Positions 45,468 through 63,961 of a DNA stretch of 64,000 nt are shown here, piece by piece. A model generated the notes under the pieces. That model was given only the letters and a program-made list of their open reading frames with translations. It was not told where the DNA came from and did not search any database. The stretch is taken from NCBI RefSeq assembly GCF_001404985.1, contig NZ_JRLF01000009.1, positions 496,001 through 560,000 on the forward strand, given 5' to 3'. Position 1 is the first letter of the stretch. The number at the start of each line of letters is the position of its first letter. This DNA is from Flavobacterium aquidurense. GTDB lineage: Bacteria; Bacteroidota; Bacteroidia; Flavobacteriales; Flavobacteriaceae. Both the position numbers and the translations under genes were made by a program.

Positions 45468-46442
45468 TTAATCGTGAACCGGACTTTGTGTACAAGGACA
45501 GTTACTGATTGCCTGTAAGAAATCGAAACCAATAGTTATCGAGTGTGTACCTGTGTTATAGTTACCCAAATCGTTGAACATTACCTGGTATGAATATCCA
45601 AAATAGAATTTAGATTTCATGAAACCTACCATTGGCCCAACTGATAATGGTTTAGGAAACTGGTCGTTTAGGAAACGGTATGAAACTCCTATCCAGTAGT
45701 AATCTTCGTAACGATTGTAACGTCTGTATTTGAAGTTGAAATCGGTTGTAGAACGTTTATCACTTGCAAAATATTGGTAGTAAACAGACGGCTCGTATTC
45801 GATACGGCTGTTTTCTCCATCTTTAAATACATATCCGGAATATACCTGGTAGTTGGAAAGTAAAGATGGTTCTACTCCTCTGTATTTATCTGTATTTTTC
45901 TTTAAAACGTTATTGGCATTAAAACTCACATAGAAACTTTTATTACGGTACAAAGCACTAATATCAAAGTTACTATTCGCATTATAACGATTATCTGTAA
46001 CTCCCGGATCAATAAAAGGCTGATTGGGTGTACTATTAAATTCATCTGTATCAATACGGAAAGTATTGATATTATAGGAAAGTCCAAAAGACAGATATTG
46101 CTTAGAATAGTAATCTAAAATGATGTGGTGCGCAAATGAAATTTTAGCTCCAGTTTGACGCGTATAACCATTTTTATCATTATAAACATTTATACCAACC
46201 CCGGAACGATCCAGTACTCTAAAATCAGCATAAACCGATTGGTTGTCCGGCGCATCTTTAATCCCCACCCATTGTGTAAGACCGTTTGCCCTAATTCTAA
46301 GGTTATCCCCGATACCGGCAAATGCTGGTGAGATAACAAAGGGGTTGTCCGCCAAATATTGTGTAAAAACTGGTAGGTTTAACTCTTGGCTGTAACTTGT
46401 TGTTACAGCCATGAGTACTAAAGATAAAATAAACTTTTTCAT
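45468..46442 (-). CDS. sprF: PorP/SprF-family type IX secretion membrane protein
   Basis: Outer-membrane protein of 324 residues from the ATG at 46442, with signal peptide MKKFILSLVLMAVTTSYSQ. The mature N-terminus LPVFTQYLADNPFVISPAFAGIG is the hallmark of PorP/SprF proteins; the rest is strand-rich, ending near SITIGFDFLQ. In F. johnsoniae SprF lies directly downstream of sprB and is needed to export SprB. Here it is 44 bases downstream of the giant adhesin gene on the same strand, an identical arrangement. Confidence 0.92.
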   Translation of the reverse strand: MKKFILSLVLMAVTTSYSQELNLPVFTQYLADNPFVISPAFAGIGDNLRIRANGLTQWVGIKDAPDNQSVYADFRVLDRSGVGINVYNDKNGYTRQTGAKISFAHHIILDYYSKQYLSFGLSYNINTFRIDTDEFNSTPNQPFIDPGVTDNRYNANSNFDISALYRNKSFYVSFNANNVLKKNTDKYRGVEPSLLSNYQVYSGYVFKDGENSRIEYEPSVYYQYFASDKRSTTDFNFKYRRYNRYEDYYWIGVSYRFLNDQFPKPLSVGPMVGFMKSKFYFGYSYQVMFNDLGNYNTGTHSITIGFDFLQAISNCPCTQSPVHD

Positions 46443-46486
46443 TGTAATAATTTTTTTAGATAACATCATCAGGGGCTCTTATTTTG

Positions 46487-49400
46487 TTATCTGTATAAAG
46501 TGAAATGTCCTACAAACTCTCTTGCATCTTTCTCGTCTTTCAATTTAAGAACATACCAGTAATCTCCTGTTGGTAATTCTTCGCCATTGTATTTACCATC
46601 CCATTTTTGACCGTAGTGGTACTTAGCAATTACACGACCGTATCTGTCGAAGATTGAGAACTCAAGGTTGTTGTAAATATTAGTACAACCAGGACCCCAT
46701 GTATCATAAATACCATCTCCGTTAGGGGTAAAGTAATTATCAAGACAAACATCTACGTAAATAGCATGAACAGTAATTGTCGCTGTACATCCGTTTTGAT
46801 CTCTTACTATTACTACATAATCTCCTGTTTTGTAGATTTTGTATTTGTTTGAAGATGTAAACGGCTCTCCGTTGAAACTGTACTCATAAGCAGGTGAACC
46901 ACCAGCAGCAGTAACATTAATAATGTTCATTTCCTGTTGTCCTGTAGCCTCGATAAGAGTTAACGGATCATATGCTTTGATGTCGAAACTAATTGTTGGT
47001 ACGATACATCCGTTTGTATGTCTTGTCACGATAAAGTGTCTTCCCGGAGCAACATTTGTAAAGATGTGACTTGTCTGGAAAGGACCTGCTTCGTTATCAA
47101 GTGCATAATCAATCTGAGTAAGATCTGTATTGCTTGTATCAACTGTAATAGTTACCATGTTAGATTGTGCATTGTTCACACAGTCATAATTAACTTCAAC
47201 AGTTGGGTTTAGAACTACCGGTAAAGGCATATTCTCTACAAACTCAGATGTACATCCTTGAGCATCTTTAACATAAACGGTATGAACACCTCCTGAAAGA
47301 TTCGTAAAGTCAAAGATAGTCTGACCAATTGCTCCTACAGTATAAGTTCCGTTTTTAACATCAAGACTTACGCTATATGGTGCTGTACCTCCTTTAATTT
47401 CGATACTAAATGCTCCGTCTTTATCGTCTTTACAAACTTCAGGAATCATAGAGTTTGCAAGTTCTTTCACGATAAGAGGTAATGGTTGTGTAATTTCTAT
47501 TTCGTCTACTACATAACAACCGTTTTCATCTTGTGTAACGATAGTATAGATACCAGCAGTTAATTTCTCGAATGTATTTTTAGTATCAAACTGGTTCAAG
47601 TCAGGTGAGATAGCATATTTAACAACACCTGTACCACCTGCATAACTCATTACGATTTGACCGTTGTTTTCTCCAAAACAAGAAACATTTGTTGCTACGT
47701 GCGTTGTGCTCAGACCAACAGCAGGTTCTTTAATTTCTACAGATTTAACAACTGCATCACAATCACCGCTTACCACTCTAACATTGTAGTTTCCTGCAAT
47801 CAGACCTTCGAATCTTCCATCAGCTTTAGGTCCTTGTAATATAACACCAGCTGTAGTTTCTAAAGTATAGGCATAGTTTCCTAAAGCACCTTTTCCTTCA
47901 GCAACGATAACACCTGTTTGTTCACCTGTACATTTTACAACTGCATTTGTAATATCTAATTCTAATAACAGAGGCTCTAAAGCATCAATTCTAATTTCGT
48001 TAGAAATACTAGCCACACAGTTATTGGCATCTTTTACAAAGTACTGGTATTTACCAACCGGCACCTGGAATGATACTGAAGTTATAAATGGAGTAACATT
48101 ATATGTTGTACCATCTGCACTGTAAGTATAAGGAGCTGATCCGCCCGTTGCACTTAATGTAAGGGTAGTTTCTGTATCACATGTTTGCGCTGTTGCTAAA
48201 GTTAAATCAGCAACAATTTCTGTAGGTTCTGTAATAACAATATTAGCTGATGTTATTGAACAGTTATATCCGTCAGAAACTGTAATACTGTATGTTCCGG
48301 CAGGTAATCCTGCGAAAACAGGATCAGTTTGCGGACCTGAAACAGCAACTGGGTTTACTGATAAGTAATTTAATGTATATTTATAGTTACTTCCCTGACC
48401 ACCTGTAGTTGTATGAACAGTAATGATACCGTCTCTTCCACCAAAACAAGATAACATTGCTGCATTTGGTGTAGCATTTACCTGAATTGGATCCGGTACA
48501 ACTAATGTCACGATTTCAGTATCGATACATCCTTTACCGTCTTTAGCATTTACGGTGTAAACTCCAGCTTTTAATCCTGTAAAGTTTCCATCAGTTCTGT
48601 AAGGAACTATTGGAGCACCGTTTAATACTAATTCATAAGTATAATTATTATCCCATCCACCTACTGCAGAAGCAGAGATTTCACCGTCATCATAATTTGC
48701 AGATGTACACGTAATTGGGCTAGTTAATACTTTAACCTCTAATTGAGCTGAAGGCTGTGCTATTGTAAACACAGTCGAAACAGTACACTCAGGTAATGCT
48801 CTTAATTTTGCCGTTACGGTATATGTACCTGCAACAAGGTTTGAAATCAATTCAGGACCAGCACTTGTAGTTGTTCCTGAGATTACTGCAGGACCACCAG
48901 TGATAGTGTAATCAAAAGGACCAGCTTCATCAAGAGGATCTGTTTGATTGTCTACAAAAGTTAATTCAACGCTTCCGGTACTTGTACCATAACAAATTTC
49001 TGTTGCAATTGGATTAACTTTAATTTCAAATGTGTTAGGATTTGAAACATAATGTGCTTCTTGTATTGAACAATGTGTATCAGGGTTTTCAACAGTAATT
49101 AAATAATTTCCTATTGGTAATCCTGTAAATACTCCTGTTGTATTGTTATCTGTAAATGTGCTTCCGCCAATACCTTCAATTTTGTATAACAAGAATGCCG
49201 GAGCCGGTGTACCTGTTGTTTTAACAGTTACAGTTATATCTTCATTGTTAATACATGTGATGTTTTTATTAATTGTAATATCAATATCATCTAAACTAAT
49301 GAAAGGTTTAATATCGATTATTGATGTTGCTGATCCAACACATCCGTTTTCATCATAAACATTTACAGTATAAATACCTCCTGTAAGATCAAATACAGTA

Positions 49401-52400
49401 TATACATTTGATGTACTGCTTTGAAGTACTGTTGCTCCTTTAATAAATTCATATTTAATGAAGTTACCAGAACCACCAGTTACATTGTTTACTGTAATTG
49501 TAGCCAGATTATTTCCGTTAGTTCCAGGAGTACAGCCAAATTGAGTAACAACCGGATCAGGAACTGTAATTACAGCTGGCTGACCTATTGTAACATCTTC
49601 TAATGCTTTACAACCTCTACCTGAAGTAACTGTTACGGTATATTGTCCTACAGGTAATCCTGTAAACACTCCAGATGTTTGATCTGGTCTTGTAACTGGT
49701 CCAGCAGTAATACTATAGTAATAAATAGGGTTATTATTTACACCTGTTTCATCAATAGTAGCAGTAATAGTACCATCTGTAAATCCGTTACAAGTTACAT
49801 CAGTTCCTTTTACAAGTAAACCTTGAATGTCTGTAGCTTTTTCAATATCAAACTCAACTGTATCTGTACAATTAGTTGTTAAATCTGTTACAATAATAGT
49901 ATGATGTCCGTGATTAACATTATTAAATGTTCCTGACGTCTGACCAAAGTTACCATCTAAACTATAGCTATAATTTGCAGGAGTTGCTCCTCCGGTAGCC
50001 GTAGCAGTAACTATACCATCTACGAAGTTACAACCTGGCAATTTAGTTACCACAACATCTAAAACTAATGGTGGTAAAATATTTACTACAGCTGTTGTTG
50101 TTACTTCACAACCATTACCATCTTTTACTGTTACATCATAGGAACGAGCATCAGTAACTGTGAATGTTGGATTAGATTGGAATCCGTTACCAATACTATA
50201 AAGGATTGGTGCTACACCTGTAACTCCGGTAATCGTAAATGTATACGTTCCGTTTGTTGCATCCGGACATTGACTGAACGGAGCTACACTTGGAGTTGTT
50301 GGTAATGCATCCTCAATAATTGTTTGAGTTTTTGTAGCAGGACATCCGTTAAGATCTTTTACATAAATATCCCAAACCATGTTTGCTCCATTGTTTGTAT
50401 CTACCACAATCGTAGGATTAGCTCCAAACGTTGTTGGAACCGGAGATCCCTGAACTACTGCTGCATAACCGTAAGCTTGCGTTCCGCCTGTAGCAGTAAT
50501 TGTAATTATAGCTTTTTTATTGTTACAATTAATATTTGTTGCAGTAGATGTGAAATCCAGAACAGCCGGCTCACCAACTACAAAATTAATTACCTGACGC
50601 TGACATCCTGAAATATTATCTAAAACAGTAAATGTATAACTACCTGCTGTTAAACCTGTATATGTAATAACATCTCCAACTTTTGTAGCAGTTCCTGCAA
50701 TTGGCGAGATACTATATCCATAATTAGCCGGAGTAATATAGTTCGTTACCGTAAAGGCTACTGAACCTGTATTACCACCATTACATAATACATCGCTTAA
50801 TAACTGAGCAGTTACATTGATTTTATCAGACTCTTTTATTACAATCGCTTTAGTTGTACTACAACCGTTAGCATCTGTAACTTTTATTTGATAATTATCC
50901 GGTAATAATCCAGGGAAAATACCCGTTGTATTGTTTGCTACTGCTGTTGCAGGTGAAACAATTTCATATTTATATGGTCCTACACCACCGGTTACTGCGG
51001 TTACAGTAGCTGTAGAAGTTCCTCCTACAGTGTTACAGTAAATTGGTGTTGCAGTAATATTCATATCTGTTGGCGGCGTGTAAGGATTTACGACTACAGA
51101 GTTAGTAACTCTACATCCTTTAGAATCGATTACAACATAGTAAACCGTTTTTGGACTCACTATAGTACTTACCGTTAATGTTGGAGAATCTCCAAAAGTA
51201 ACTCCGTTATCAAAACTATATTTATATCCAGGTGTACCATCAGCAGCAGTTAAGGTAACAACTGCATCCTGAGGAGCATTAGTTAAGCTACAACCAAATG
51301 GTGTAACTACTGCCGTTGCTGTTAATACAACTGGCTGTGAAATTACAACAGTTTCGCTTACAACACATTTTTTAGCATCTCTTACGTAAACTGTGTAAGT
51401 ATTTGCAGTTAATCCAGCAAAAATGTTAGATGGCTGATATGTTGTACCGTTAATACTGTATTCGTAAGCAGGAAGTCCGCTTCCGGCTGTGATTGTAATA
51501 CTTCCGTTATTGCCACCATTACAACTTACATCTGATTTAGTTGTAGAAATTGTAGGCATTACAATAGGATTTACAACTACAGGAAGTGAAACTGCCTGAC
51601 AGTTTTTACTATCTGTTACTGTAAAAGTATATGTTCCAGGAATATTTGTTGTGTATGGAGAAGTTGCCGGTGAAGGTGCACCTCCATTAAATGAAACCTG
51701 ATAATTATTATATGTCAATGATCCCTGAGTAGCTGTCAATGTAATTGTAGCCAAGTTAGGAGCGGCACATGTTAAATCCTGTAATTTAGCCTCTAACAAT
51801 AGTTCCTGATCAAGGTTGTAAACATAAGGCGTAACCGCATCACAATTGTTTGCATCTCTTACATAGAAAGTATAAGAACCCGGTGCATTTAATACGAAGT
51901 CTGGGCTAGATTTAAATCCGTTACCAATACTGTACATTAAAGGACCTACTCCGTGACCTACCAAAGTAACATTTACCGGAGCGCCATCATAACAAACACC
52001 TGTAATTGGGTCTATTGTTGGTCTTGGATCTGTTACGATAGTCAATGGTAATTGTGCGATACATCCTTTTGAATCTTTTACATAAGCAATCCATGTTTTA
52101 GACGGATCTAAAATAGCATTAGGACTAGCTTTATAATCACTGGCAACCGGAGTTGCAGGAGTTGCAACGAAAGCATAAGTATAGTTTGGAGTTCCTCCAG
52201 AACCTATAACACTCACTTTTGCACCAAAACTACAGTTTGCATTAACATTAGAAACTAATGATAAATCTAATGGTACAGCCGGTTGGCTAACCACTACAGT
52301 ATTTGTAGCGACACAACCTGTTGCAACATCTACAACATCAATTTTATAAGAACCTACAGCTAAATTTACAAGAGTAACTTTAGGGTTTGTATGTGTTCCT

Positions 52401-55400
52401 GCAACGGCAACACCGTTGATTGAATATGTATATGATCCGGCAAAATTACCTACTGTAAATTCTACAGAACCATTTGGAGTTGCCGCTGTTTCGTTACAGC
52501 TCACATCTTTTATTAATTGACCAGAAACTGTAATATTTGTTACTGGTTTTATTGTGTATGATTTTTGGAATGAACATCCATTTGCATCAGTTACTTTGAA
52601 AACATAAGTATCTGGCCCAAGTCCTGCAAAAACATTTGATGTGCCGTTATCCACTGTAATTGGCGATACGATTTCATATTTAGTAATTGCATATCCACCT
52701 ACTACAGAAACTGTAATACTTGTTGTTGGGGCGTTACAAGTGATTGCAGCACCAGCAAAAGTTAAGTTTGTAATTTTTTGGTATGGATTAACCGTTACCG
52801 TATTATCAAACGTACACCCTTTAGCATCTTTAACATAATAGTGAATAGTTTGTACTGCACCATTATCCAGAACTGCTAATGTATTAGCGTCATTGTATAC
52901 CGCAGAACCATCAAAATTATATTTGTATGGAGCTGTTCCTGTACCTGTAGTAACATTTACTGTTACAACTGCCGGCTGAGCAACATTACTTGTATTACAA
53001 GAATACGGTGTTACGGCTGCAGTAGCTGCAAGAACTGCCGGTTGTCCAACTGTGAAAGGTTTAGACAATGAGCATCCTCTACCTGAGAATACTGTAATTG
53101 AATACGTTCCTTGTGGTAAATTAGAGAATATGTTATTTGTTTGTACTGATCCCGGAGGAACTGGTAAGATAGAATACGTGTAAACTGGATTATCGCTGTT
53201 AGCAGCAAGATTTACAGTAATCGTACCATCGCTAGATCCGTTACAAGAAGCATCGATTACAACAGCAGTAAAATCTACAGGTGTTGGAGCAGATAACTCA
53301 ACAGGAGCATTTGCAGTACACAATGTATTTGTATCTGTAATAGTAATTGTATAAGCACCTGCAGGAACACCTGAAATAACATTACCTAAAATAGTTCCCA
53401 CATTAGGAGTGATACTATATGAATAAGTACCTGAACCTCCTGAAGGTGTCAATGTTATAACGCCATCGTTATTCGCACAAGTTGGTAATTTAGTAATCGC
53501 AGGTACTACTAAAAGAGGTTTTTCGATTACGATCGATTTAGTGTCAATACAACCGTTAGCATCCTTGATACTAATTGTATTTGAACCTGAATTAAGACCT
53601 GTAACATCATATGGTAAACCAGGAATACTTGCATATAAACCGTTGTTTACACTTATAGAATAAGGTGCAACACCTGCAGTAGTTTGAGAAACTCTCACTA
53701 CATAAGTTCCTTCAGCCACACATTTGTCTACAACTGCTAAAGCAATTACCGGACTTGGTGCTAAAGATATAGTCGTACTAACTCTGTCTGTACAGCCATT
53801 TGCATCTTGTACAACAATATCCCAATTAGTTCTTGTTGCATAATTTAGGCTTAAAACATTGCCTGTATTGAAAACTGTAGGCGTGAAACCAACAGCTCCA
53901 GCCGCGTATTTATAAGGACCTGTTCCTCCTGTTGTAGTCAGAGTAACCTGAGCATTAACATTACAAGTAGCATCTACAACTGCAGTGATAGCAGTTTTAA
54001 GAGGTTGAGCTGGTTGCGTTATGTCAAATGTATAAGCATTAGAACATAATGTACCTGTAGACTCAGAAACTTTTAGAACATAGTTTCCTGCTGGTAAGTT
54101 TGGTATCGTATGAGAAACCGGACCACCTGGAGAACCTGTTAATGTTCCAGCTATTGCCGGAGTAACCGGTAATAAAGTTAAAGCATTTAAAACAACATAA
54201 TTAATTACAGAAACTGACGAGTCGTAACCGCTAACAGTAAATTGTAAAGTTCCTGTTGAAGTACCTGTACAAGTAACATTAGTCGCTGTTGTACCTGTAA
54301 TAACTATTCCTGACGGAGGAGGAGGAGTTTTAAATTCTAAAATAGAGATACAATCATTAGCATCTTTTACTTGTAAGTAATAAGTAGTTCCGTGTTGTAA
54401 ACCTATAAATGTATAAGTAGGACTTGTTTGTGCAGGGCTTTCAGTTAAAGGTTGTCCAAAAATAGAATATTTATAATCTGGTGTACCTCCTGAAGTAGTC
54501 ACTGTAACATTAACACCTGTAGCACAATTGTTTGAATCTACAACGGCAGTCATACTTAAATATGGTGGTGTTTCAATTCTTAATTTACCACTTTTAAATT
54601 CACAACCTACTGCATCTACAACGGTAATATAATAATCTCCAAAGTTTAAGTTTGCAAATTTATGAACCGCAGTTGCAGCAGCACCTGTTTCAGTATAAGT
54701 ATCAATTTGTGTAAATGTATTATCGTATAGTCTGTAAACGTATGGAGCAACTCCACCTGAAACTACATTAAGGTCAAAACTACCAGGCGTATTTAAGTTA
54801 CATAAAATTGCATTACGCACTATATTAACAACAATTGGAGCTGGATTATTCAACGTAATTGTTGCAGGTGCAGAAGTACAGCCTTTAGCATCTTTAACCA
54901 CATAGTTATATGTTCCTGCAGATAATCCACCAAAAACATTTGTAGATACAAAAGTAGCACCGTTATCAATACTGTAAGTAAAAGGAGAAACTCCTGATGT
55001 AGCTACCAATTTGATAGAACCATCTGTGTAAGCGTTACAAGTTGGGTCAACTTTTGTAGCTGTTACAGCAATACTTTGCGGTGTTGTTGTAGTAACTTTA
55101 TTTGTGATTTTTTTACAACCTGCTGCGTCAGTTACCTCAAAATAGTAATCACCGGCAACAGTTGTTGTATATGTATTTCCTACCAAATCCGGAGAAGTAC
55201 CATAAGTAACTCCACCATCTGTAGAAACTAAATAAGTATAAGGAGCTAAACCTCCGCCTGCATTAATAGTAATACTTGCTCCAGCTGGAGTTAAACAAGT
55301 AATATCGCTAACTAAAACAGCATTTGCTGTTAAAACAGAATTAACTGTAACTGTAGCAGTAGCTGTACAATTATTAGCGTCTTTAACCGTAACAATATAT

Positions 55401-58400
55401 GTTCCAGGAGAAGTCACTGTAAAAGTATCTGCAGGGCTTGGTGTAACACCATTACTAATAGAATACGTTAAAGGTGCAACACCTCCTGTACCAACAGCTT
55501 TTATTATAAAAGATGTTCCTGTAGAAGTACATTGATTTGTAACCGAAGCCGTAACAGTAGGTGCTACATCTGTAGTAACTGCTACATCTAGTTTAATCAA
55601 ACAACCATTTGCATCTTTTACCCAAATATCCCAATCTGTAATTGTTGCATTAAGGTTAGCCGTGTTATTTGATACATAATCAGCTGAAGTAGGTGCAACA
55701 TTATTTTGTACATAAGCATAAGAATATGCTGTAGTTCCTCCAGTAGCATTAACTGTTACTTTTGAAGTAGTTACATTACAATTCGCATTTACCACATCAA
55801 CAGTAGCTGCAAGAGCTTGAGTTGGTTGTGTAATTGTAACTGATTTATTGTCTTTACAATTTGTAGTGTTATCAGTTACCTCAAGATTATAAGTACCGGC
55901 AACTAAACCATTTAATGTAATAACATCACCTGTTGTTGCAGTTGTATAAGGTAATCCTGCAGGAGTAGAAGTTACTGCAACAGCATAATTTCCTGTTGCG
56001 CTAAAGCCACTAATAGTGAATCTTGCTGAACCTGTATTTCCTCCAAAACATAAAACATCTGTTAATTTAGATGCTGTAACAGCAATTGGTGTAAGACTAT
56101 TTACAGTATAAGACTGAATTGCAAAACATCCGTTTGCATCAGTAACTTTAAAAGTATAAGTATCCGGAGTTAATCCTGTGAAAATTCCTGTTGTAGCTCC
56201 TGTTACATTTGTAACAGCAGAAGCCGGAGCAGTAATTACATAAGCTAAACTTCCAACACCATTTGTAGTAGTAACTGTTACTGTACTTGTAGTACTTGCA
56301 GCAGGAGCACATAAAATTGGTGTACCGGTAATTGATGCAATAATTGGTGGATCTAATTTTTTTACAACAATTTGTTGAATTGCTGTTGTACATCCTTTTG
56401 CATCTTTAACAGAATAGTTGATCGTTTGATCATTTCCGTTATCATTAATTGTTAAGGTATTATTGTTACTATATGGGCTTCCATTGAAGCTATATTCATA
56501 CGGAGCTGTACCAGTTGTTGGTACTGCAATTGTAATCGTAGCAGATTGTTTTGTATTTGTAACACTACAAGTAAAATTAGTAGCAGTAGCAGTAGCTGTT
56601 AAAGTAGTAGGCTGAGCAATAGTTACAGCTACAGTATTTGTACAGCCTTTACTGTCTTTTACATAGAAAGTATATGAACCTGCTGCTAAATTTTCGAATA
56701 ATGAAGTTAAAGCATAAGTTGTTCCATTAGAACTGTATGTATATCCTCCTGAACCACCAGCTCCTGTTAACTGAACAGAACCTGTTGCTGAACCATTACA
56801 AGAAGCATCAACTTTTACAGCAGTAACAGTTGGGTTTGTAATTGGGGCAACAGTAGTCGATGTAGTAGTAGAACATCCGTTAGCATCTGTAATTACAAAT
56901 GTGTAACCATCAGCGTTAGCCGGAGTTACAGAAATTGTAAATGATGTTCCAGCTATAGGACCAACCGGAGAACTTGGTGTTCCCGATCCTTTTGTTACTG
57001 TATAAGTATATGGTGCTTTTCCTCCTTTAACATCAACTTTGATAGTCGCGTCTGGAGTACCTGTACAATCTAATTCTTTAGTCACACCTGCCAAAGCAGA
57101 TACCTGAGGATAAACAGTTACCGGAGTAGCTGCACTAGTTGTACAACCATTTTTATCCTTAACTGTAACTGTGTATGTTCCTGCAGTTACTGTAAAAGTA
57201 TTACCTGGCTGGAAGTTCGTTCCATCAATACTGTAAGATAGAGGATTTAATCCCGTAGCATTTGCCGTAATCGTAAAGCTTGAGATCGAACCTGTCTGAC
57301 ATTGGTTGTCAACCGTAACTGAAGTAATTACCGGTTTGGCATCTACAGCAATAGTGATTGGGAAATTATCTGTACAACCATTAGCGTCTTTAACGTAAAC
57401 GATCCAGTTTAATACTGTACCATTCACAGTATTAACTGTCAATACATCATCATAAACTGTAGGAACCGGAGCTCCTTGTCTTGCAACAGCATAGGTGTAA
57501 GCAGGAGTTCCTCCTGTTGTAGTAGCTGTAATTTCAGCTGTAAATTTATTACAATTTACTGTAGTTGCCGTTGCAGTAACGTCTAACACCGCAGCTGGCT
57601 GCGCTAAAATAACTGAATAAGTAGCCTGACATTTTGTTAATCTGTCTGTTACAGTAATTGTATAAGTACCTGCAGGCTGAGCCGCAGTAACAGCAATAGT
57701 TGTTGTTGCCTGGCTTACATTTGTAGCTTGTTGAATAATTGTATTAGCAGCGTTTCTAATAATGTAGTCGAATCCGCTTGCTTTTACTCCACTAACTGTA
57801 AATTCAATAGTTCCTGTAGATCCAAAACATTTAATGTTAGTAAGTACTGATCCTCCTGCTGTAATATCAGAAGTACCTTTTATAGTGTGACCTTTTGTAA
57901 ATAAACAATTTGTAGCAGTATCAGTAGCCTGGAAAATATAATCACCAGGAGCTAATGATTTAAAGTCACCCGTTGTATTTGTCGCAGGATTAAATCCGGC
58001 AGGACCTGAAATAATTTGGTATGTGATAGTCGCTAAACTTCCAGATTTTACAGCTGTTAAAGTTACATGTCCGCCTGGAGGAGTTGTAGAACAATCGTAT
58101 CCGCTATCAACAATAGTGATATCTGTGATTTGATCTAAAGCACCAATAGTAATCGATAATGGTCCAAGCTGACAATTATTAGCATCTTTAATATAAGCTG
58201 TCACTGTTCCAGCTGTTGTTGTAGAGAATGTATTTGTTGTTGTAAAGTTAGTAGTTCCGTTAAAACTATACGTATAAGCACCAGTTCCTCCACCAGCAGT
58301 AACTGTAACTACTGCAGGAACTGTTCCTGTAGCACTACATTTAATTGTTGTAGCAGCAATTGATCCTGTTACAACTGTAGGTTGCGTTAATCTTATAATT

Positions 58401-61400
58401 GCACTTGCAGAAGTACAACCTTTACTATCTCTAACCTGATAAGTATAATCAACGTTTGGACTTAAATTAGAGTATAACGTATTTGTTGACCAACCTAAAT
58501 TGTTAAAGTTATATTCATATCCGCCTGAACCACCAGCACCAAGTAATTCAACTGTACCGTTTTGTAAGCCATTACAAGTAATTTGTGTTGGTGAAGCAGT
58601 AACAGTAGGATTTGTTATTGGGCTAATAGTAGCAGTAACAGTTGTAATACATCCTTTAGAGTCTGTAATTTCAAAAGTATAAAGTCCTGCTCCGGTTGTA
58701 GCTGAGTAATTAAAGGTATTACCTGTAACATTTACAACACCGCCATAAGCTCCGGTATCTTTTTTAACTTTATAAGTATATGCAGCAACTCCATCTGTAA
58801 TGTCAACTTTAATAGTTGCATTAGGAGTTGTACAATCTAATGTTTTTGTAATTGAAGCAGCCGCTTTTAATTCCGGTGCAATAACAATATTTGAAATTGT
58901 TACAGGACAGTTATTACTATCTGTAACTGTAATAGTATGTGTACCTGGTCCAACATTTGTAAATGTATTCGTGTTTTGTGCAGGTGCACCATCTAAACTA
59001 TATGTTATAGCTCCTGTACCTGTTGCAGTTACTACAAGTGTAGCTCCTTTATTAGATGAGAAACAATAATTTGAAGTAGCAGCCAAACTTGCTGTTGGCA
59101 ATACTGGCGCATCTACAACTACTTGCGCAGACGCAGTAGAAGAACACGCATATTGATCACGGGTTACAACAGTATAAGTTCCTGTAGGAACATTTGCAAA
59201 AACTCCAGTGTTTTGGAAAGCTCTTACAACTGTAACGCCATTTGCAGCTCTTAATTCGAATTCATAAGCAGGAGTTCCTCCAGTTGCAGTAGCTGTAATT
59301 GTTGCTCCTGTAGTACAAGTTGCAAGTTTAGTAACTTTTGCATCAATTTTTAATTCGGCAGGAACACCAATAGGCTGGCTAAATGGGAAACTACAACTTG
59401 CAGCTTTATCATCATAACGAATTAAAATATTGTATGTTTTACCTGTTAATCCAGTAACTGTAACAGGAGATGTTTTAGAGTTTGTCCACGTTGTTCCGTT
59501 ATCTAATGAATAATCAAAACCATAAGCAGTTCCAAAATTTTGAGCTGATAAAGTAATTTCTCCGTTATTAGCACCAAAACAAGTAAGGTCTTTATGTCCT
59601 ACGATTGCAGCAGAAAATGCTTTATCCGTACCCACAACAACTGGGAAATCTTTTGTAGCAAGACAAGATTCCGGTATCTGGCGAACCCAGATATCATCTA
59701 TAAGTACATCATTACCATTAAACTCATTACTGTATGATCTAATTACAAAACTCAAATTAGTTTTACCAATACCAGGATTTAATGTTAACTCTTTATATTC
59801 CCATTTTTCAGTTTTAGGAACAACCCATGGGTTAGACGTGTCTGTGGTAGCAACGATTTCTTCTGGCCCACCTACATTATTTAAATTGTTTACTAACTGA
59901 ATCGTTAATTTTGGATCAGCGTGAGATGTCGATGTTTTTACAATAAGATTCTCTGCCCATAGCGAAATAATTACAGACTGATTATCAATAACATCTTTAA
60001 TTGGTTTACTATATAAAATACCTCCAATTCCTGCAGAACCTCCTACGTTTACACATAGAAATCTTCCTAACGGATCTTGTGGAACGGTATGATCTTTTGC
60101 AAAAATCCAAGAATTTCCAAAAGTAGTTTTAATAGAACTTGCTACTGCATATTTACCATCATTGATTTGGTAATCGTTAAAATCTCCACAAGGATATCCA
60201 ACTGGGTGTGGCGTAGATTCGTCTTCAAAACAATAAGCAGGATTAATTCCCGGAGTAGTTGTGTAACCACCTTTACCAAAATCTTCCTGTAATAAATTAC
60301 TATAAGTAGAAACTGTAGTTACTGTATACTTAACAGAAATTGTATGTGTTCCTGACGGAACATTTGCAAATACGTTATTTGTAATTGGAGTATTTGGAAT
60401 ACCATTTCTAAAATATTCATATTTATAGTTTGCAGATGTACCGTTTGTAACCGTTACTGTACTTGTTGCAGTACCGTTACAATTAAATACAGGATCTTCA
60501 ACTTTAATAGTTGGTTCAGCTGGTTTTTGATCCAGAGTTACCGTGTAAGGAATTGTATACTCACAACCAACTGCATCTTTAATTTTTAGGATGTAAGAAC
60601 CTGGCAATACATCTTTTTCATTTGTTGCCTGCCATGTTGCACCACCATCAAAACTGTACTGATAAGGAGTAGTTCCTCCTTGTGCATTATTAATTCTTAA
60701 TTTACCACCTTGTTGACCTAATGTACATCCTGCCAATGCAGCTACACCACCAGATGCTGTTACAGCAGATGTTGGTCCGGCAATGATTTTTTGTACCGCA
60801 GGATCTGAACAGTATTTAATAGTTGGCTGACCAAATTCAGGAGTATAAGCTATACCATATCTTACTACTACATTATAAGTTCCAGGTTGTAAATTAGAGA
60901 ATACAGGATTTGTTTGATAAGTTCCTCCATTATTAATACTGTAAGACATACTATATCCGTTAGCATTAGTAACATTTACTCTAATTTCAGAGTTATCATT
61001 ATAACAAGTACTGTTTGTATTTGTAATTGTATAAGTTGGTTTTGTACTATTAGGAACTACAACAGTTCTTGTTAATGTACAGTTATTTTTATCTACAATT
61101 TTAATTACATACGTTCCCGGAGCAGTAACTACATATTCATTTGAAGTTTGAAAAACAGTATCACTATTTATAAAATAAGAATACGGAGTATTTCCACCTT
61201 CTGCAGTAATTTTAATTTTTCCATCACTACAAGCTGTCAATGGTTCTACTAAAGTAGCCGTTGCTTTATACTCGTTCCAAACCTGACCTATATAAATATA
61301 TTTTGTGTCTTTACAACCATCATCTGTAGAAACTTCTACAACATAGTTTTTATTGGTCGTTAAATTATCAAAAGTATATTCAGCAGCAGCAACTGGTCCT

Positions 61401-63961
61401 ATATTATATAATAAGTTTCCATCACTGTAAACCTTATAATAATATTGTGGATTTGCATCATTCACCGCTACTTTAATTCTACCTTTTTCACCATAACACA
61501 ATGGTTGTGTTACCTCTGAAACTACAGCAAAATTTCTTTGTCTGATTTGAATATTAGGAACTGTAAAAATACAAGGATTTAGATTTACACCAGTTTGTCT
61601 GATGTATACCGTATAGAATCCTGCAGTATTTACATTAAAAATATTACTTGGCTGATAATTTGTACCATCAATACTGTACTCATATCCTGCAGGAACACCA
61701 CCAATTGTAATAGTACCTGGTTTTCCGCAAATAATATCTGTATGTTTTTCTGTTGGATTTAATGAGTTGGTGAATACATTAAAATAGAAACGGTTAAAAC
61801 AACCACCTGCATAATTTAATGTCAACCTGTATTGTCCCGCTATCTTAGCTTCATAATTTGGTCCGGTCGCAACCTGCGTCCAGGAACATGAAGTACCTTC
61901 ATTAGCACAACTTGCACTAATTGGAGCAGCACAACTTGCCTCATCCAGTTTTTCCCAAACAAGAGTAGAACCATCTGAAATATGAGTTTCGATTAATCTC
62001 GAATCATTTGCACCACACAAGAAAAGATTAGGTAACTCTTTTCCGTTGTTAGGACAAATTAATACCTCACCTTTATATGGAGCTTTTGCATATGGAATAA
62101 CCGGATTTGTTGTTGTAGCACCAAATCTTGTTACAGTAAAAGCCTGGTAAATTGATCTACATGGAGCTGCGGCTAAATTATAAACATAATAAATTCCAGG
62201 CTCTTTAACAGTAAGAGTTTGTCCTGTACCTATTTGTTTAGTACGAGCTTCGTCACTAAACCAGGTATAAGAAGTATACCCGTTTGCAGCTACAAGATTT
62301 ACATCATCTTTACATAAAGTAGCAGTTGCTGTATATTTACAACCATCAACACCTACTAAAAAGTTAGTTGCTTTTGGAGTTAATATACATCCTGTATTCG
62401 TATTAACACTTGGATCATCAGAAATTTGAAAATCCGGATTCAATGTTCCTTTATAAGTTGCGTAAGCCGAGTTATCAATACTGTTAGAACATGCTTCACT
62501 CAATGAATTACAATCAGGAACAACCTTAACTTTGAAACTGATAACCTTATCCGCTATTGAATTTGCTTTAACTACTGAATCATCAATTTTAAATACAATA
62601 CTTCTCGTAGCAGGATTATAACTTTGAATCGATACTCCGGCTGGTAAAGGATTTATATCAGTAGGATAATTAAATATAATATTGATAGGTAACTGATCTC
62701 TAATCGTTAAAGATTTAGCATCATCATTACCCGTGTTTTTAAAACCAATTTCATAATTTAATTGTTGGCCTAATGTTACATTTTGGTTTCCAATATCTAC
62801 ACCCGCAGAATTTTTTACAATTTTTGTCAGTACAATATGCGGTTCGATAATATCTACCGCAAAGGCATTAAAATAATAAAAATAAACGTCCTGAGTACTT
62901 CCTAACTTAATTTTTGCCGAAGTTTCATTATTATCAATTACAATCCCCCCGGGCCTTAATAGCGTTCCCGGATTGTTAATATTCAAAATACCGGCATCAT
63001 ACCCAAGGGTATTTGTACTGGCAGGATTTCGATTTAAGAAATCTTCTGTTTTATCCGTAGCCGGATCAACATAAGTTACACTACTGTTAAAGAAGTTATT
63101 TGATGGTCTGATGATTGCATTTGCAGCATTTGTAGCCGTAATAGTTGTACCATTAATTTGCAGATAATCTCCCGCAATAGGCTGATCTCCCTCTAAGGCT
63201 GCAAAAGCAAATTTCACACGAACAGGACCAGTAGGAATGGTCTTAAATCCGGCAACATCAATATCTAAAGTTGTAGCACCTCCAATACCGCTAAAACCAT
63301 CAAACGAGGTAATGAATTTTGCAGGCAATGTTGGATCTTCATAAACAACAAAAATAGACCAACCGGCAGATAAACCAGTTCCGCCATTTGTTCCTTCACT
63401 AGACTTAACGTTTGCAACAGTATACAATCCCTGAGCATTAGTTTGTCCCGAAACTAAAGATGTAATATCTGCATAACAGGCATATGCTTTATTATTATCA
63501 CCACCAATTGGTGCCGCATTGGCATCATAAATGATTTGACCGGTAATATCATTATAGGCACCTGTAGGTAATTTAAGTTTTACTTTTTCTATACCGGTAC
63601 GATCATTTTGCTGAAGGATCGCACCCCAATACAAACCAGCATAAACAATTTTATAACAGGCAGGTTTTGGTACCGTCAATGTAGCACTACTGGAACTGAA
63701 TGTAGTGTTATCATTATCGACATCAATATATTTCATATTGAAATCAGAATTGTATCCATTACCATTATAAGCGTCTTTTGGACTCCTATTATTGGTTTCC
63801 CTGTTGAGGATATTGTTACCAATAAGTAACATATCACCCTTCAATCTCTTGTCAAATCTTGGCGTAAATGACTTAAGATTTTGAGAAATTACAAAGTAAC
63901 TTTGAAAGAAAATCAAAGCTATTAAAATCAATCTTAGGTTAGTAGGTGTTTTCATAATCAT
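46487..63961 (-). CDS. sprB: Giant SprB-like gliding-motility adhesin, 5,824 aa, type B T9SS sorting domain
   Basis: Cell-surface adhesin carried along the cell by the gliding motor. The signal peptide is at residues 1-27 (ATG at 63961; ATG 63955 equally possible). Residues 30-370 form a globular domain (CYKIVYAGLYWGAILQQND), 370-500 a DUF11-like domain (GQQLNYEIGFKNTGNDDA). I then count about 57 SprB-type modules of about 80-90 residues, each usually beginning CNG...G and ending KDANGC or similar. An insert lies near residues 1217-1440. The C-terminal 90 residues (NYFTPNGDGIYDTWGPGC, FDRYGRVIAKY, WDGKYNGEELPTGDYWYVLK) are a type B T9SS sorting domain. F. johnsoniae SprB is about 6,500 residues from memory. 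One frame, no interruptions. Confidence 0.9.
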   Translation of the reverse strand: MIMKTPTNLRLILIALIFFQSYFVISQNLKSFTPRFDKRLKGDMLLIGNNILNRETNNRSPKDAYNGNGYNSDFNMKYIDVDNDNTTFSSSSATLTVPKPACYKIVYAGLYWGAILQQNDRTGIEKVKLKLPTGAYNDITGQIIYDANAAPIGGDNNKAYACYADITSLVSGQTNAQGLYTVANVKSSEGTNGGTGLSAGWSIFVVYEDPTLPAKFITSFDGFSGIGGATTLDIDVAGFKTIPTGPVRVKFAFAALEGDQPIAGDYLQINGTTITATNAANAIIRPSNNFFNSSVTYVDPATDKTEDFLNRNPASTNTLGYDAGILNINNPGTLLRPGGIVIDNNETSAKIKLGSTQDVYFYYFNAFAVDIIEPHIVLTKIVKNSAGVDIGNQNVTLGQQLNYEIGFKNTGNDDAKSLTIRDQLPINIIFNYPTDINPLPAGVSIQSYNPATRSIVFKIDDSVVKANSIADKVISFKVKVVPDCNSLSEACSNSIDNSAYATYKGTLNPDFQISDDPSVNTNTGCILTPKATNFLVGVDGCKYTATATLCKDDVNLVAANGYTSYTWFSDEARTKQIGTGQTLTVKEPGIYYVYNLAAAPCRSIYQAFTVTRFGATTTNPVIPYAKAPYKGEVLICPNNGKELPNLFLCGANDSRLIETHISDGSTLVWEKLDEASCAAPISASCANEGTSCSWTQVATGPNYEAKIAGQYRLTLNYAGGCFNRFYFNVFTNSLNPTEKHTDIICGKPGTITIGGVPAGYEYSIDGTNYQPSNIFNVNTAGFYTVYIRQTGVNLNPCIFTVPNIQIRQRNFAVVSEVTQPLCYGEKGRIKVAVNDANPQYYYKVYSDGNLLYNIGPVAAAEYTFDNLTTNKNYVVEVSTDDGCKDTKYIYIGQVWNEYKATATLVEPLTACSDGKIKITAEGGNTPYSYFINSDTVFQTSNEYVVTAPGTYVIKIVDKNNCTLTRTVVVPNSTKPTYTITNTNSTCYNDNSEIRVNVTNANGYSMSYSINNGGTYQTNPVFSNLQPGTYNVVVRYGIAYTPEFGQPTIKYCSDPAVQKIIAGPTSAVTASGGVAALAGCTLGQQGGKLRINNAQGGTTPYQYSFDGGATWQATNEKDVLPGSYILKIKDAVGCEYTIPYTVTLDQKPAEPTIKVEDPVFNCNGTATSTVTVTNGTSANYKYEYFRNGIPNTPITNNVFANVPSGTHTISVKYTVTTVSTYSNLLQEDFGKGGYTTTPGINPAYCFEDESTPHPVGYPCGDFNDYQINDGKYAVASSIKTTFGNSWIFAKDHTVPQDPLGRFLCVNVGGSAGIGGILYSKPIKDVIDNQSVIISLWAENLIVKTSTSHADPKLTIQLVNNLNNVGGPEEIVATTDTSNPWVVPKTEKWEYKELTLNPGIGKTNLSFVIRSYSNEFNGNDVLIDDIWVRQIPESCLATKDFPVVVGTDKAFSAAIVGHKDLTCFGANNGEITLSAQNFGTAYGFDYSLDNGTTWTNSKTSPVTVTGLTGKTYNILIRYDDKAASCSFPFSQPIGVPAELKIDAKVTKLATCTTGATITATATGGTPAYEFELRAANGVTVVRAFQNTGVFANVPTGTYTVVTRDQYACSSTASAQVVVDAPVLPTASLAATSNYCFSSNKGATLVVTATGTGAITYSLDGAPAQNTNTFTNVGPGTHTITVTDSNNCPVTISNIVIAPELKAAASITKTLDCTTPNATIKVDITDGVAAYTYKVKKDTGAYGGVVNVTGNTFNYSATTGAGLYTFEITDSKGCITTVTATISPITNPTVTASPTQITCNGLQNGTVELLGAGGSGGYEYNFNNLGWSTNTLYSNLSPNVDYTYQVRDSKGCTSASAIIRLTQPTVVTGSIAATTIKCSATGTVPAVVTVTAGGGTGAYTYSFNGTTNFTTTNTFSTTTAGTVTAYIKDANNCQLGPLSITIGALDQITDITIVDSGYDCSTTPPGGHVTLTAVKSGSLATITYQIISGPAGFNPATNTTGDFKSLAPGDYIFQATDTATNCLFTKGHTIKGTSDITAGGSVLTNIKCFGSTGTIEFTVSGVKASGFDYIIRNAANTIIQQATNVSQATTTIAVTAAQPAGTYTITVTDRLTKCQATYSVILAQPAAVLDVTATATTVNCNKFTAEITATTTGGTPAYTYAVARQGAPVPTVYDDVLTVNTVNGTVLNWIVYVKDANGCTDNFPITIAVDAKPVITSVTVDNQCQTGSISSFTITANATGLNPLSYSIDGTNFQPGNTFTVTAGTYTVTVKDKNGCTTSAATPVTVYPQVSALAGVTKELDCTGTPDATIKVDVKGGKAPYTYTVTKGSGTPSSPVGPIAGTSFTISVTPANADGYTFVITDANGCSTTTSTTVAPITNPTVTAVKVDASCNGSATGSVQLTGAGGSGGYTYSSNGTTYALTSLFENLAAGSYTFYVKDSKGCTNTVAVTIAQPTTLTATATATNFTCSVTNTKQSATITIAVPTTGTAPYEYSFNGSPYSNNNTLTINDNGNDQTINYSVKDAKGCTTAIQQIVVKKLDPPIIASITGTPILCAPAASTTSTVTVTTTNGVGSLAYVITAPASAVTNVTGATTGIFTGLTPDTYTFKVTDANGCFAIQSYTVNSLTPIAVTASKLTDVLCFGGNTGSARFTISGFSATGNYAVAVTSTPAGLPYTTATTGDVITLNGLVAGTYNLEVTDNTTNCKDNKSVTITQPTQALAATVDVVNANCNVTTSKVTVNATGGTTAYSYAYVQNNVAPTSADYVSNNTANLNATITDWDIWVKDANGCLIKLDVAVTTDVAPTVTASVTNQCTSTGTSFIIKAVGTGGVAPLTYSISNGVTPSPADTFTVTSPGTYIVTVKDANNCTATATVTVNSVLTANAVLVSDITCLTPAGASITINAGGGLAPYTYLVSTDGGVTYGTSPDLVGNTYTTTVAGDYYFEVTDAAGCKKITNKVTTTTPQSIAVTATKVDPTCNAYTDGSIKLVATSGVSPFTYSIDNGATFVSTNVFGGLSAGTYNYVVKDAKGCTSAPATITLNNPAPIVVNIVRNAILCNLNTPGSFDLNVVSGGVAPYVYRLYDNTFTQIDTYTETGAAATAVHKFANLNFGDYYITVVDAVGCEFKSGKLRIETPPYLSMTAVVDSNNCATGVNVTVTTSGGTPDYKYSIFGQPLTESPAQTSPTYTFIGLQHGTTYYLQVKDANDCISILEFKTPPPPSGIVITGTTATNVTCTGTSTGTLQFTVSGYDSSVSVINYVVLNALTLLPVTPAIAGTLTGSPGGPVSHTIPNLPAGNYVLKVSESTGTLCSNAYTFDITQPAQPLKTAITAVVDATCNVNAQVTLTTTGGTGPYKYAAGAVGFTPTVFNTGNVLSLNYATRTNWDIVVQDANGCTDRVSTTISLAPSPVIALAVVDKCVAEGTYVVRVSQTTAGVAPYSISVNNGLYASIPGLPYDVTGLNSGSNTISIKDANGCIDTKSIVIEKPLLVVPAITKLPTCANNDGVITLTPSGGSGTYSYSITPNVGTILGNVISGVPAGAYTITITDTNTLCTANAPVELSAPTPVDFTAVVIDASCNGSSDGTITVNLAANSDNPVYTYSILPVPPGSVQTNNIFSNLPQGTYSITVFSGRGCSLSKPFTVGQPAVLAATAAVTPYSCNTSNVAQPAVVTVNVTTGTGTAPYKYNFDGSAVYNDANTLAVLDNGAVQTIHYYVKDAKGCTFDNTVTVNPYQKITNLTFAGAAITCNAPTTSITVSVVGGYAITKYEIVSPITVDNGTSNVFAGLGPDTYVFKVTDANGCSFQKSYTIKPVTNITVSGQLIKDVSCNETAATPNGSVEFTVGNFAGSYTYSINGVAVAGTHTNPKVTLVNLAVGSYKIDVVDVATGCVATNTVVVSQPAVPLDLSLVSNVNANCSFGAKVSVIGSGGTPNYTYAFVATPATPVASDYKASPNAILDPSKTWIAYVKDSKGCIAQLPLTIVTDPRPTIDPITGVCYDGAPVNVTLVGHGVGPLMYSIGNGFKSSPDFVLNAPGSYTFYVRDANNCDAVTPYVYNLDQELLLEAKLQDLTCAAPNLATITLTATQGSLTYNNYQVSFNGGAPSPATSPYTTNIPGTYTFTVTDSKNCQAVSLPVVVNPIVMPTISTTKSDVSCNGGNNGSITITAGSGLPAYEYSINGTTYQPSNIFAGLTANTYTVYVRDAKKCVVSETVVISQPVVLTATAVVTPFGCSLTNAPQDAVVTLTAADGTPGYKYSFDNGVTFGDSPTLTVSTIVSPKTVYYVVIDSKGCRVTNSVVVNPYTPPTDMNITATPIYCNTVGGTSTATVTAVTGGVGPYKYEIVSPATAVANNTTGIFPGLLPDNYQIKVTDANGCSTTKAIVIKESDKINVTAQLLSDVLCNGGNTGSVAFTVTNYITPANYGYSISPIAGTATKVGDVITYTGLTAGSYTFTVLDNISGCQRQVINFVVGEPAVLDFTSTATNINCNNKKAIITITATGGTQAYGYAAVVQGSPVPTTFGANPTIVVDTNNGANMVWDIYVKDLNGCPATKTQTIIEDALPTTPSVAPFSQCPDATNGTYTFTITGVTGVAPILYSIGNGFQSNPTFTVTDARSYDVTVKDGNGCEVTTTAVVNILPPLVLDVVVTKLPGCNFVDGIVTATATGGATPANYSYSLDGNFGQTSGTFNNVNHGHHTIIVTDLTTNCTDTVEFDIEKATDIQGLLVKGTDVTCNGFTDGTITATIDETGVNNNPIYYYSITAGPVTRPDQTSGVFTGLPVGQYTVTVTSGRGCKALEDVTIGQPAVITVPDPVVTQFGCTPGTNGNNLATITVNNVTGGSGNFIKYEFIKGATVLQSSTSNVYTVFDLTGGIYTVNVYDENGCVGSATSIIDIKPFISLDDIDITINKNITCINNEDITVTVKTTGTPAPAFLLYKIEGIGGSTFTDNNTTGVFTGLPIGNYLITVENPDTHCSIQEAHYVSNPNTFEIKVNPIATEICYGTSTGSVELTFVDNQTDPLDEAGPFDYTITGGPAVISGTTTSAGPELISNLVAGTYTVTAKLRALPECTVSTVFTIAQPSAQLEVKVLTSPITCTSANYDDGEISASAVGGWDNNYTYELVLNGAPIVPYRTDGNFTGLKAGVYTVNAKDGKGCIDTEIVTLVVPDPIQVNATPNAAMLSCFGGRDGIITVHTTTGGQGSNYKYTLNYLSVNPVAVSGPQTDPVFAGLPAGTYSITVSDGYNCSITSANIVITEPTEIVADLTLATAQTCDTETTLTLSATGGSAPYTYSADGTTYNVTPFITSVSFQVPVGKYQYFVKDANNCVASISNEIRIDALEPLLLELDITNAVVKCTGEQTGVIVAEGKGALGNYAYTLETTAGVILQGPKADGRFEGLIAGNYNVRVVSGDCDAVVKSVEIKEPAVGLSTTHVATNVSCFGENNGQIVMSYAGGTGVVKYAISPDLNQFDTKNTFEKLTAGIYTIVTQDENGCYVVDEIEITQPLPLIVKELANSMIPEVCKDDKDGAFSIEIKGGTAPYSVSLDVKNGTYTVGAIGQTIFDFTNLSGGVHTVYVKDAQGCTSEFVENMPLPVVLNPTVEVNYDCVNNAQSNMVTITVDTSNTDLTQIDYALDNEAGPFQTSHIFTNVAPGRHFIVTRHTNGCIVPTISFDIKAYDPLTLIEATGQQEMNIINVTAAGGSPAYEYSFNGEPFTSSNKYKIYKTGDYVVIVRDQNGCTATITVHAIYVDVCLDNYFTPNGDGIYDTWGPGCTNIYNNLEFSIFDRYGRVIAKYHYGQKWDGKYNGEELPTGDYWYVLKLKDEKDAREFVGHFTLYR
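48182..58834 (-). repeat. Six copies of a seven-module super-repeat in sprB
   Basis: Taking the cysteine of the first module (pattern K-x-L-D/P-x-C or S-D-I-T-C) as phase mark, the copies span 58834-57068, 57067-55298, 55297-53480, 53479-51770, 51769-50033 and 50032-48182, that is 589, 590, 606, 570, 579 and 617 residues. Each copy contains seven modules in the same order; same-phase modules resemble each other more than neighbours do. Phase marks are, for example, ITNPTV after module 1, GAGGSGGY in module 2 of copies 1 and 2, VTPF/YxC before module 3 in copies 4-5, TG-F-GL-PD-Y in module 4, and W-I-YVKD-NGC ending module 6. Confidence 0.85.
59640..60310 (-). other. Non-repeat domain inserted in the sprB module array
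   Basis: About 220 residues that lack the module pattern. It opens with LLQEDFGKGGYTTTPGINP, continues with NSWIFAKDHTVPQDPLGRFL and SVIISLWAENLIVKTSTS, and closes with NDVLIDDIWVRQIPESC. The DFG-start, a sandwich-like run of strands and the closing LIDDIWV pattern recall jelly-roll, carbohydrate-binding-like domains of Bacteroidota surface proteins. Ligand unknown; fold assignment is inference. Confidence 0.6.

Follow-up and report, generated by a model that had tools for sequence, protein, structure and literature searches.

SprB has been called the best-characterized gliding adhesin of the Bacteroidota, with a filament of ~150 nm according to the same review (PMC13104615). In Flavobacterium johnsoniae it is a protein of 6497 amino acids (aa; PMC9870892) that is anchored by SprF (PMC12635249), and its relative GhpA is described as a heptamer of a 5,898-residue protein secreted by the type IX secretion system (T9SS; PMC11205867, PMC13319060); these and the published statements below are cited from excerpts of the sources. 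In the literature searched, which included excerpts of PMC12635249, PMC9870892, PMC10994853, PMC13104615, PMC12239597, PMC11205867 and PMC13319060 and a term search of PMC8986121 without a match, and which covered subscription papers thinly, we found no account of how the giant SprB chain is arranged and no description of a fold-back, matched arms or a module period. Here we analysed a stretch of 64,000 nucleotides from Flavobacterium aquidurense (contig NZ_JRLF01000009.1, positions 496,001 to 560,000; hereafter the window) that encodes a SprB-type adhesin. Its modules follow a seven-module period and form two arms of equal length about a single centre, and we consider it probable that the protein folds back at its central module, with the equal arms lying antiparallel in a register that repeats every seven modules.

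The window adhesin and its seven-module period

By homology, the gene is a SprB-type gliding adhesin, and a role in gliding is predicted on that basis. The protein matches the PF13573 SprB repeats (E 5.9e-99, 323.8 bits, cut-off 28), and its C-terminus matches TIGR04131 (E 2.5e-25, 88.4 bits, cut-off 35), indicating a type B T9SS sorting domain to which PF13585 also matches (59.1 bits, cut-off 27). Fifty modules of 75-102 residues, each bounded by two cysteines, lie within residues 1461-5652, and a 51st, partial module follows. The product of the sprF gene downstream is the likely secretion and anchoring partner of the adhesin. Modules were located with a hidden Markov model (HMM), and the features are listed below by position in the window.

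46487..63961, minus strand: SprB-type gliding adhesin of 5824 aa (open reading frame (ORF), PF13573 SprB repeats and type B sorting domain TIGR04131)
61757..63961, minus strand: N-terminal head, residues 1-735 (module hits all ≤5 bits before residue 736)
60329..61756, minus strand: six N-terminal modules, residues 736-1211 (module HMM)
59657..60328, minus strand: insert of ~220 aa without module hits, residues 1212-1435 (missing from some relatives)
54308..59656, minus strand: arm 1, modules 1-21 in three seven-module blocks, residues 1436-3218 (module HMM, period and arm counts)
54032..54307, minus strand: central module 22, residues 3219-3310 (profile of modules 21-23; central alignment A1)
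48785..54031, minus strand: arm 2, modules 23-43 in three seven-module blocks, residues 3311-5059 (register uncertain by about one module)
46784..48784, minus strand: tail, modules 44-51, residues 5060-5726 (highly conserved; alignment A2, which covers tail and sorting domain at a mean column identity of 63%)
46490..46741, minus strand: type B C-terminal sorting domain, residues 5741-5824 (TIGR04131 / PF13585)
45468..46469, minus strand: sprF (PorP/SprF family), directly downstream of the adhesin (PF11751, E 6.5e-72; TIGR03519, E 4.7e-71)

The initial annotation had described the central part of the protein as six copies of a fixed block of seven modules, and the period itself was confirmed. 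The mean alignment z score peaked at module lags of 7 (9.97), 14 (8.57), 21 (8.27) and 28 (7.97), with lag 7 about twice the means at lags that are not multiples of seven (4.4-5.8); no excess similarity was seen at lag 35 in the window array (mean z 5.19). Same-phase module pairs had a mean z of 9.5 versus 5.15 for the others, a value that none of 20000 label permutations reached, and the best partner was of the same phase for 30 of 42 modules. With block starts at residues 1710, 2299, 2889, 3495, 4065, 4644 and 5261, the blocks are 589, 590, 606, 570, 579 and 617 residues long, which reproduces the annotated range of 570-617 and the difference of one residue between the first two copies. The blocks of the window gene are strongly diverged from each other; the tandem-repeat scan, which covers periods up to 500 bases, is blind to units of seven modules. 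In a tree of modules 1-42, phase changed 12 times, compared with a mean of 29.3 and a minimum of 24 in 300 shuffles, and block changed 32 times (shuffled mean 28.0), so the modules group by phase and not by neighbours or blocks. Four of five relatives tested resembled the window in this respect, the fifth, L113 (28 modules), being marginal with 15 phase changes, just under the shuffled minimum of 16.

Other parts of the annotated picture were revised. The sixth copy fits poorly (mean z 5-8 against the other copies) and its last two modules belong to the conserved tail, and the array begins three modules earlier, at residue 1436. Modules 20-22 form a special centre, and the six copies are arranged as two arms of three blocks around a central module.

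Equal arms about a single centre

To sample relatives, sprF was used as a handle in Flavobacterium and other genera of the family (one genome per species), giving, with the cut-offs chosen, matches in 24 of 61, 184 of 397 and 231 of 396 genomes. We took 145 regions upstream of sprF, hand-picked among the listed matches with room upstream (nine were extensions); the set also held one paralogue from the window's own genome. Modules were counted in 137 ORFs including the window, with the array start recognised in 109.

Nearly all of these arrays (103/109) fell into classes of 23 (n=5), 37 (23), 51 (54, including the window), 65 (14) and 79 (7) modules, and none of 30, 44, 58 or 72 modules was seen among those counted. 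The six others have one split module (L016, L021), N-runs (L011) or an early ORF end (L056, L083), or are a paralogue (L029). The profile of modules 21-23 marked a single clear centre per array, and the modules before and after it numbered 7/15, 14/22, 21/29, 28/36 or 35/43 in 103 of the 103 class arrays. The rule is thus A modules before the centre and A+8 after it, with A = 4, 7, 14, 21, 28 or 35.

We inspected 23 of the 28 ORFs without a recognised start and counted 12 complete arrays, all without the ~220-aa insert (L026, L108, L110, L120, L127, L131, L133, L143, L144, L148, L151 and L152; L143 and L144 were counted without one partial hit each, of 43 and 42 aa). The smaller class 4/12 is present among them. 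Uncounted were L089, which is without its 5' part, the paralogue L030, and the rest, which are contig ends or interrupted ORFs. The count after minus before the centre was 8 in 115 of the 117 arrays counted on both sides, namely the 103 class arrays, L016 and L021 with the split module joined, and the 12 insert-free arrays, of which 10 fit. L026 and L144 depart from the rule, with 25 and 6 additional modules that are best placed after positions +11 to +14, in the tail (six references; narrow margins). With the extra modules there, the arms can be equal in all 117 arrays while the tail varies by single modules. The tail of L026 contains 13 near-identical modules of 77-83 aa, a recent single-module expansion outside the arms.

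A second set of 80 named loci, in which the centre was called at a profile score ≥190, gave a similar picture, with 66 holding the centre and 64 of those 66 having A+8 modules after it; many of these genomes overlap the first set, and most are not independent. L173 (the same locus as L014) has 30 modules after the centre, one of them partly doubled, which is either an assembly error or a real partial duplication. L180 of this set is a broken gene, identical to L083.

Coupled changes in the two arms

Changes affect both arms at once and, in the cases with the best resolution, are mostly mirrored. A tree built from the flanks of 105 proteins (the part before the array plus the last seven modules with the sorting domain) requires a minimum of 30 changes in length class (mean 45.7 and minimum 41 in 100 shuffles); collapsing nodes <0.95 left 30 changes, and the ordered count was 32 steps. 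Exchange of entire arrays between species may underlie some of them. The window protein and L065 have a flank distance of 0.32, yet array similarities of only 0.43/0.46, and L045 and L064 have a flank distance of 0.19 and array similarities of 0.31/0.42; both pairs suggest array exchange.

Insertions were placed with the centre fixed in 55 pairs of adjacent classes, 11 of which (five or six events) had similarity >0.55 in both arms. In nine of these 11 pairs, the seven-module insertions lie within two modules of the same distance to the centre (arm 1/arm 2: 6/6, 8/8, 16/16 in three pairs, 14/13 in two, 0/0 and 8/6). Three pairs, representing two events, allow narrow placement in both arms: L130-L129 (6-9, 5-8) and L039 and L088 with L061 (13-15, 11-13). 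Alignments without a fixed centre often put one 14-module gap across the centre, and centre-anchored alignment was used instead. A 14-module duplication unit was ruled out, because the centre moves by 7 per total of 14 and near-identical tandem copies in relatives repeat every 7.

The shortest arms differ by another step. In all 66 comparisons (11 of 13 by 6 of 8 loci, the modules being mutually distinct), the modules present in seven-module but missing from four-module arms are -5, -6, -7 and +4, +5, +6. The change from 4 to 7 amounts to three modules in each arm and departs from the multiples of seven; four- and seven-module arms are both found within Xanthomarina.

Growth by duplication of whole seven-module blocks, as initially suggested, is supported in two ways. 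Relative to the five shortest, 98 of the 103 class arrays have arms that are longer by a multiple of seven modules, and both arms of L059 and L068 carry tandem blocks, mostly 93-100% identical at the DNA level, which lie ~5-16 modules from the centre in arm 1 and 2-16 in arm 2 (mirror offset 1-3 modules). Position-specific recency in mirror order was also correlated between the arms, with r of 0.53, 0.73 and 0.63 in classes 51, 65 and 79 at the best shift of -1 to -4 (species-permuted null, taken at shift 0: standard deviations 0.08, 0.14 and 0.23).

Co-variation of facing modules

Mutual information with background correction was calculated for 148 non-redundant arrays and for 122 arrays with arms ≥14. 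High-scoring column pairs formed an anti-diagonal band, their mean share being 10.0 per mille for a+b = 0 versus 0.5-0.9 at +5 to +7. Co-variation at equal distance from the centre was thus of the order of that between neighbours within one arm (10.0 and 15.1 per mille), and it linked modules up to 28 modules apart; 14 of 5000 permutations of the arm-2 labels reached the observed equal-distance value. Of the two roles initially suggested for the seven-module period, a structural repeat of the fibre is supported; phase-specific binding faces would be a possible second role, and the co-variation covers whole facing modules, not one face. In 55 class-51 arrays, the mean net charge by position was -2 to -5 for modules of arm 2 and mostly 0 to -3 for those of arm 1, which makes arm 2 the more acidic.

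Predicted structure and fibre length

Two segments of the window adhesin were modelled with AlphaFold, and confidence is given as the predicted local distance difference test (pLDDT) and the predicted template modelling score (pTM).

52805..55858, minus strand: segment across the centre, modules 16-27, 1018 residues, 52 sequences (mean pLDDT 85.4, pTM 0.52)
49286..52309, minus strand: control segment inside arm 2, modules 30-41, 1008 residues, 30 sequences (mean pLDDT 82.5, pTM 0.30)

The comparison is one of scores, and the higher pTM across the centre is as a fold-back would predict. The modules consist almost entirely of beta structure and resemble fibronectin type III and immunoglobulin (Ig) domains. 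A structure search with the central model was uninformative on arm geometry, returning mostly fibronectin type III, Ig, complement-type and GhpA chains at high root-mean-square deviation.

The ORF of L068 is exactly 6497 aa from its first methionine and has A = 28 (28 modules before and 36 after the centre). Going by protein length, it is probably SprB of F. johnsoniae UW101. At an assumed 4 nm per module, ~37 modules folded back would measure 148 nm, versus ~280 nm in single file. The published ~150 nm fits a folded-back chain, being about half of the single-file length, again with the rise per module assumed.

A putative fold-back fibre and its alternatives

From the sequences, we infer that the coupling of the arms reflects physical pairing within one chain. 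The chain would turn at the centre and its arms would associate laterally, with module -j close to module +j, in a pattern repeating every seven modules. Central module 22 with its neighbours 20, 21 and 23 is proposed to form the hairpin tip, and the centre would be the outer, far tip of the fibre; tail modules 44-51 are proposed as the stalk, so that the eight-module tail and the sorting domain would be held by SprF. Gain or loss of a block in one arm would be tolerated only together with a match in the facing arm. Arrays would grow when whole blocks are duplicated in tandem in each of the arms or, where longer alleles already exist, when a central segment is exchanged with a relative. Fold-back pairing would explain the period and the co-variation, why the arms are equal and change in mirror image, and why the tail is free in length.

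With slightly less assurance than for the fold itself, we think it likely that SprB is a zipped hairpin, anchored by its tail, with the arms paired like a two-stranded rope and the conserved turn as the adhesive tip; such a fibre would lengthen only in matched steps, and its unpaired stalk would be free to vary in single modules. The matched arms and mirror changes thereby give a direct prediction of the fold and length of SprB and of the positions of its tip and N-terminus, and would explain the period. If true, two distant parts of one gene would show an unusual coupled evolution of length, and intramolecular pairing would be readable from module counts alone.

Several observations weigh against the fold-back. 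When the analysis is confined to class 51 (63 arrays, effective number 30), the anti-diagonal band is weaker (6.0-7.3; edges 1.8-3.3), and there are parallel diagonals of up to 5.5. Charge complementarity between facing modules was looked for and none was found, and a residue-level interface drawn from the co-variation was dropped, as the co-varying columns are scattered across whole modules; the signal therefore reflects co-replacement of facing modules rather than contacts at residue level. A similar matrix could arise if central segments were exchanged at mirrored breakpoints, and mirrored breakpoints would themselves suggest that facing modules must fit. As for the placement of insertions, two of the 11 good pairs place them apart (8/17, 8/16); several good pairs, including all those at 16/16, have wide tie ranges (e.g. 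7-21 and 6-20) because the blocks resemble each other; and in most of the remaining 44 pairs divergence is too great for insertions to be placed. The 66 comparisons of short arms share ancestry and may represent one event, and near-identical runs in L069 and L080 are unequal between the arms (~14 vs 9 positions). Recency in parallel order is also correlated in classes 51 and 65 (r 0.29 and 0.41; -0.53 in class 79). The control alignment for the structure prediction was shallower (30 vs 52 sequences), and a rigid centre alone could raise pTM. The use of filament length as proof of folding back is weakened by the GhlA filament of ~180 nm, with a hook protein of 6,596 aa (PMC13319060), so that 150 nm alone is no proof, and the GhpA monomer is described as spanning its filament (PMC13319060).

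Among the alternatives, the arms would pair between two SprB chains, for instance from neighbouring cells, that run antiparallel about a two-fold axis through the centre. Arms of equal length, changes in mirror image and an anti-diagonal band of co-variation would be expected here too, and the solved relative GhpA is an oligomer. We nonetheless regard this arrangement as unlikely, since C-terminal anchoring on one cell makes it difficult for chains to lie antiparallel, ~150 nm as published would be little for a single file (with the rise per module assumed), and pTM rises across the centre within a single chain. It is more doubtful still that the centre is fixed at a relative height of a single-file fibre, for example by partner binding, with arms that are matched without touching: this explains the equal arm counts but gives no reason for changes at facing positions, for equal-distance co-variation or for the free tail length in two arrays. 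That there is no structural cause beyond block duplication, array exchange between species and common descent is very improbable, for although block duplications are real and the arrays of some close relatives (the window protein and L065) look exchanged, all of the at least 30 class changes on the 105-array tree have matched arms, the step of three modules, matched in both arms, departs from multiples of seven, and none of five paralogues with enough modules has a lag of seven.

Paralogues and known systems

As controls, we examined eight other proteins near SprB-repeat or sprF matches, seven in the window's genome and one (L029) in genome G044. The lag of seven was absent in the five of these eight that had enough modules for a lag profile, and in control proteins of 2331 and 2098 aa neighbouring modules were the most alike. 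The period is therefore not a property of the module family as such, though higher-order periods occur elsewhere. One such case is a SprB-type protein of 1721 aa in the window's genome (L237, G000:C2:188000-197000), with its own period of three modules (0.27 at lag 3).

A second sprF-like gene lies outside the window at L030 (G000:C16:475000-481100), together with a SprB-repeat protein of 2331 aa whose ~68-aa modules stand in ordinary tandem order. This protein shares with the window adhesin the module HMM, the SprB repeat family, the kind of C-terminus and an adjoining sprF homologue, but differs in that its similarity declines steadily with lag, and a lag of seven is absent. Elsewhere in the window, ORFs 24107-26167 and 26383-28443 are adjacent on the same strand and exactly 686 aa each, possibly a tandem pair.

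Compared with the window adhesin, F. johnsoniae SprB has the same module family and also has sprF downstream. L068 can be aligned with the window adhesin along the array at a mean module similarity of 0.30, with the same centre and tail, and the two differ in their arms, which have 21 modules in the window adhesin and 28 in L068. The modules of GhpA, the Aureispira grappling hook protein (PDB 9flp and seven more entries), are homologous to those of SprB, and GhpA is the clear relative in the PDB by sequence (E 1.8e-66 with the central profile, 12 stretches; next hit 3.1e-08). Its solved pieces run from the neck (1403-2314) to the base (4151-5009).

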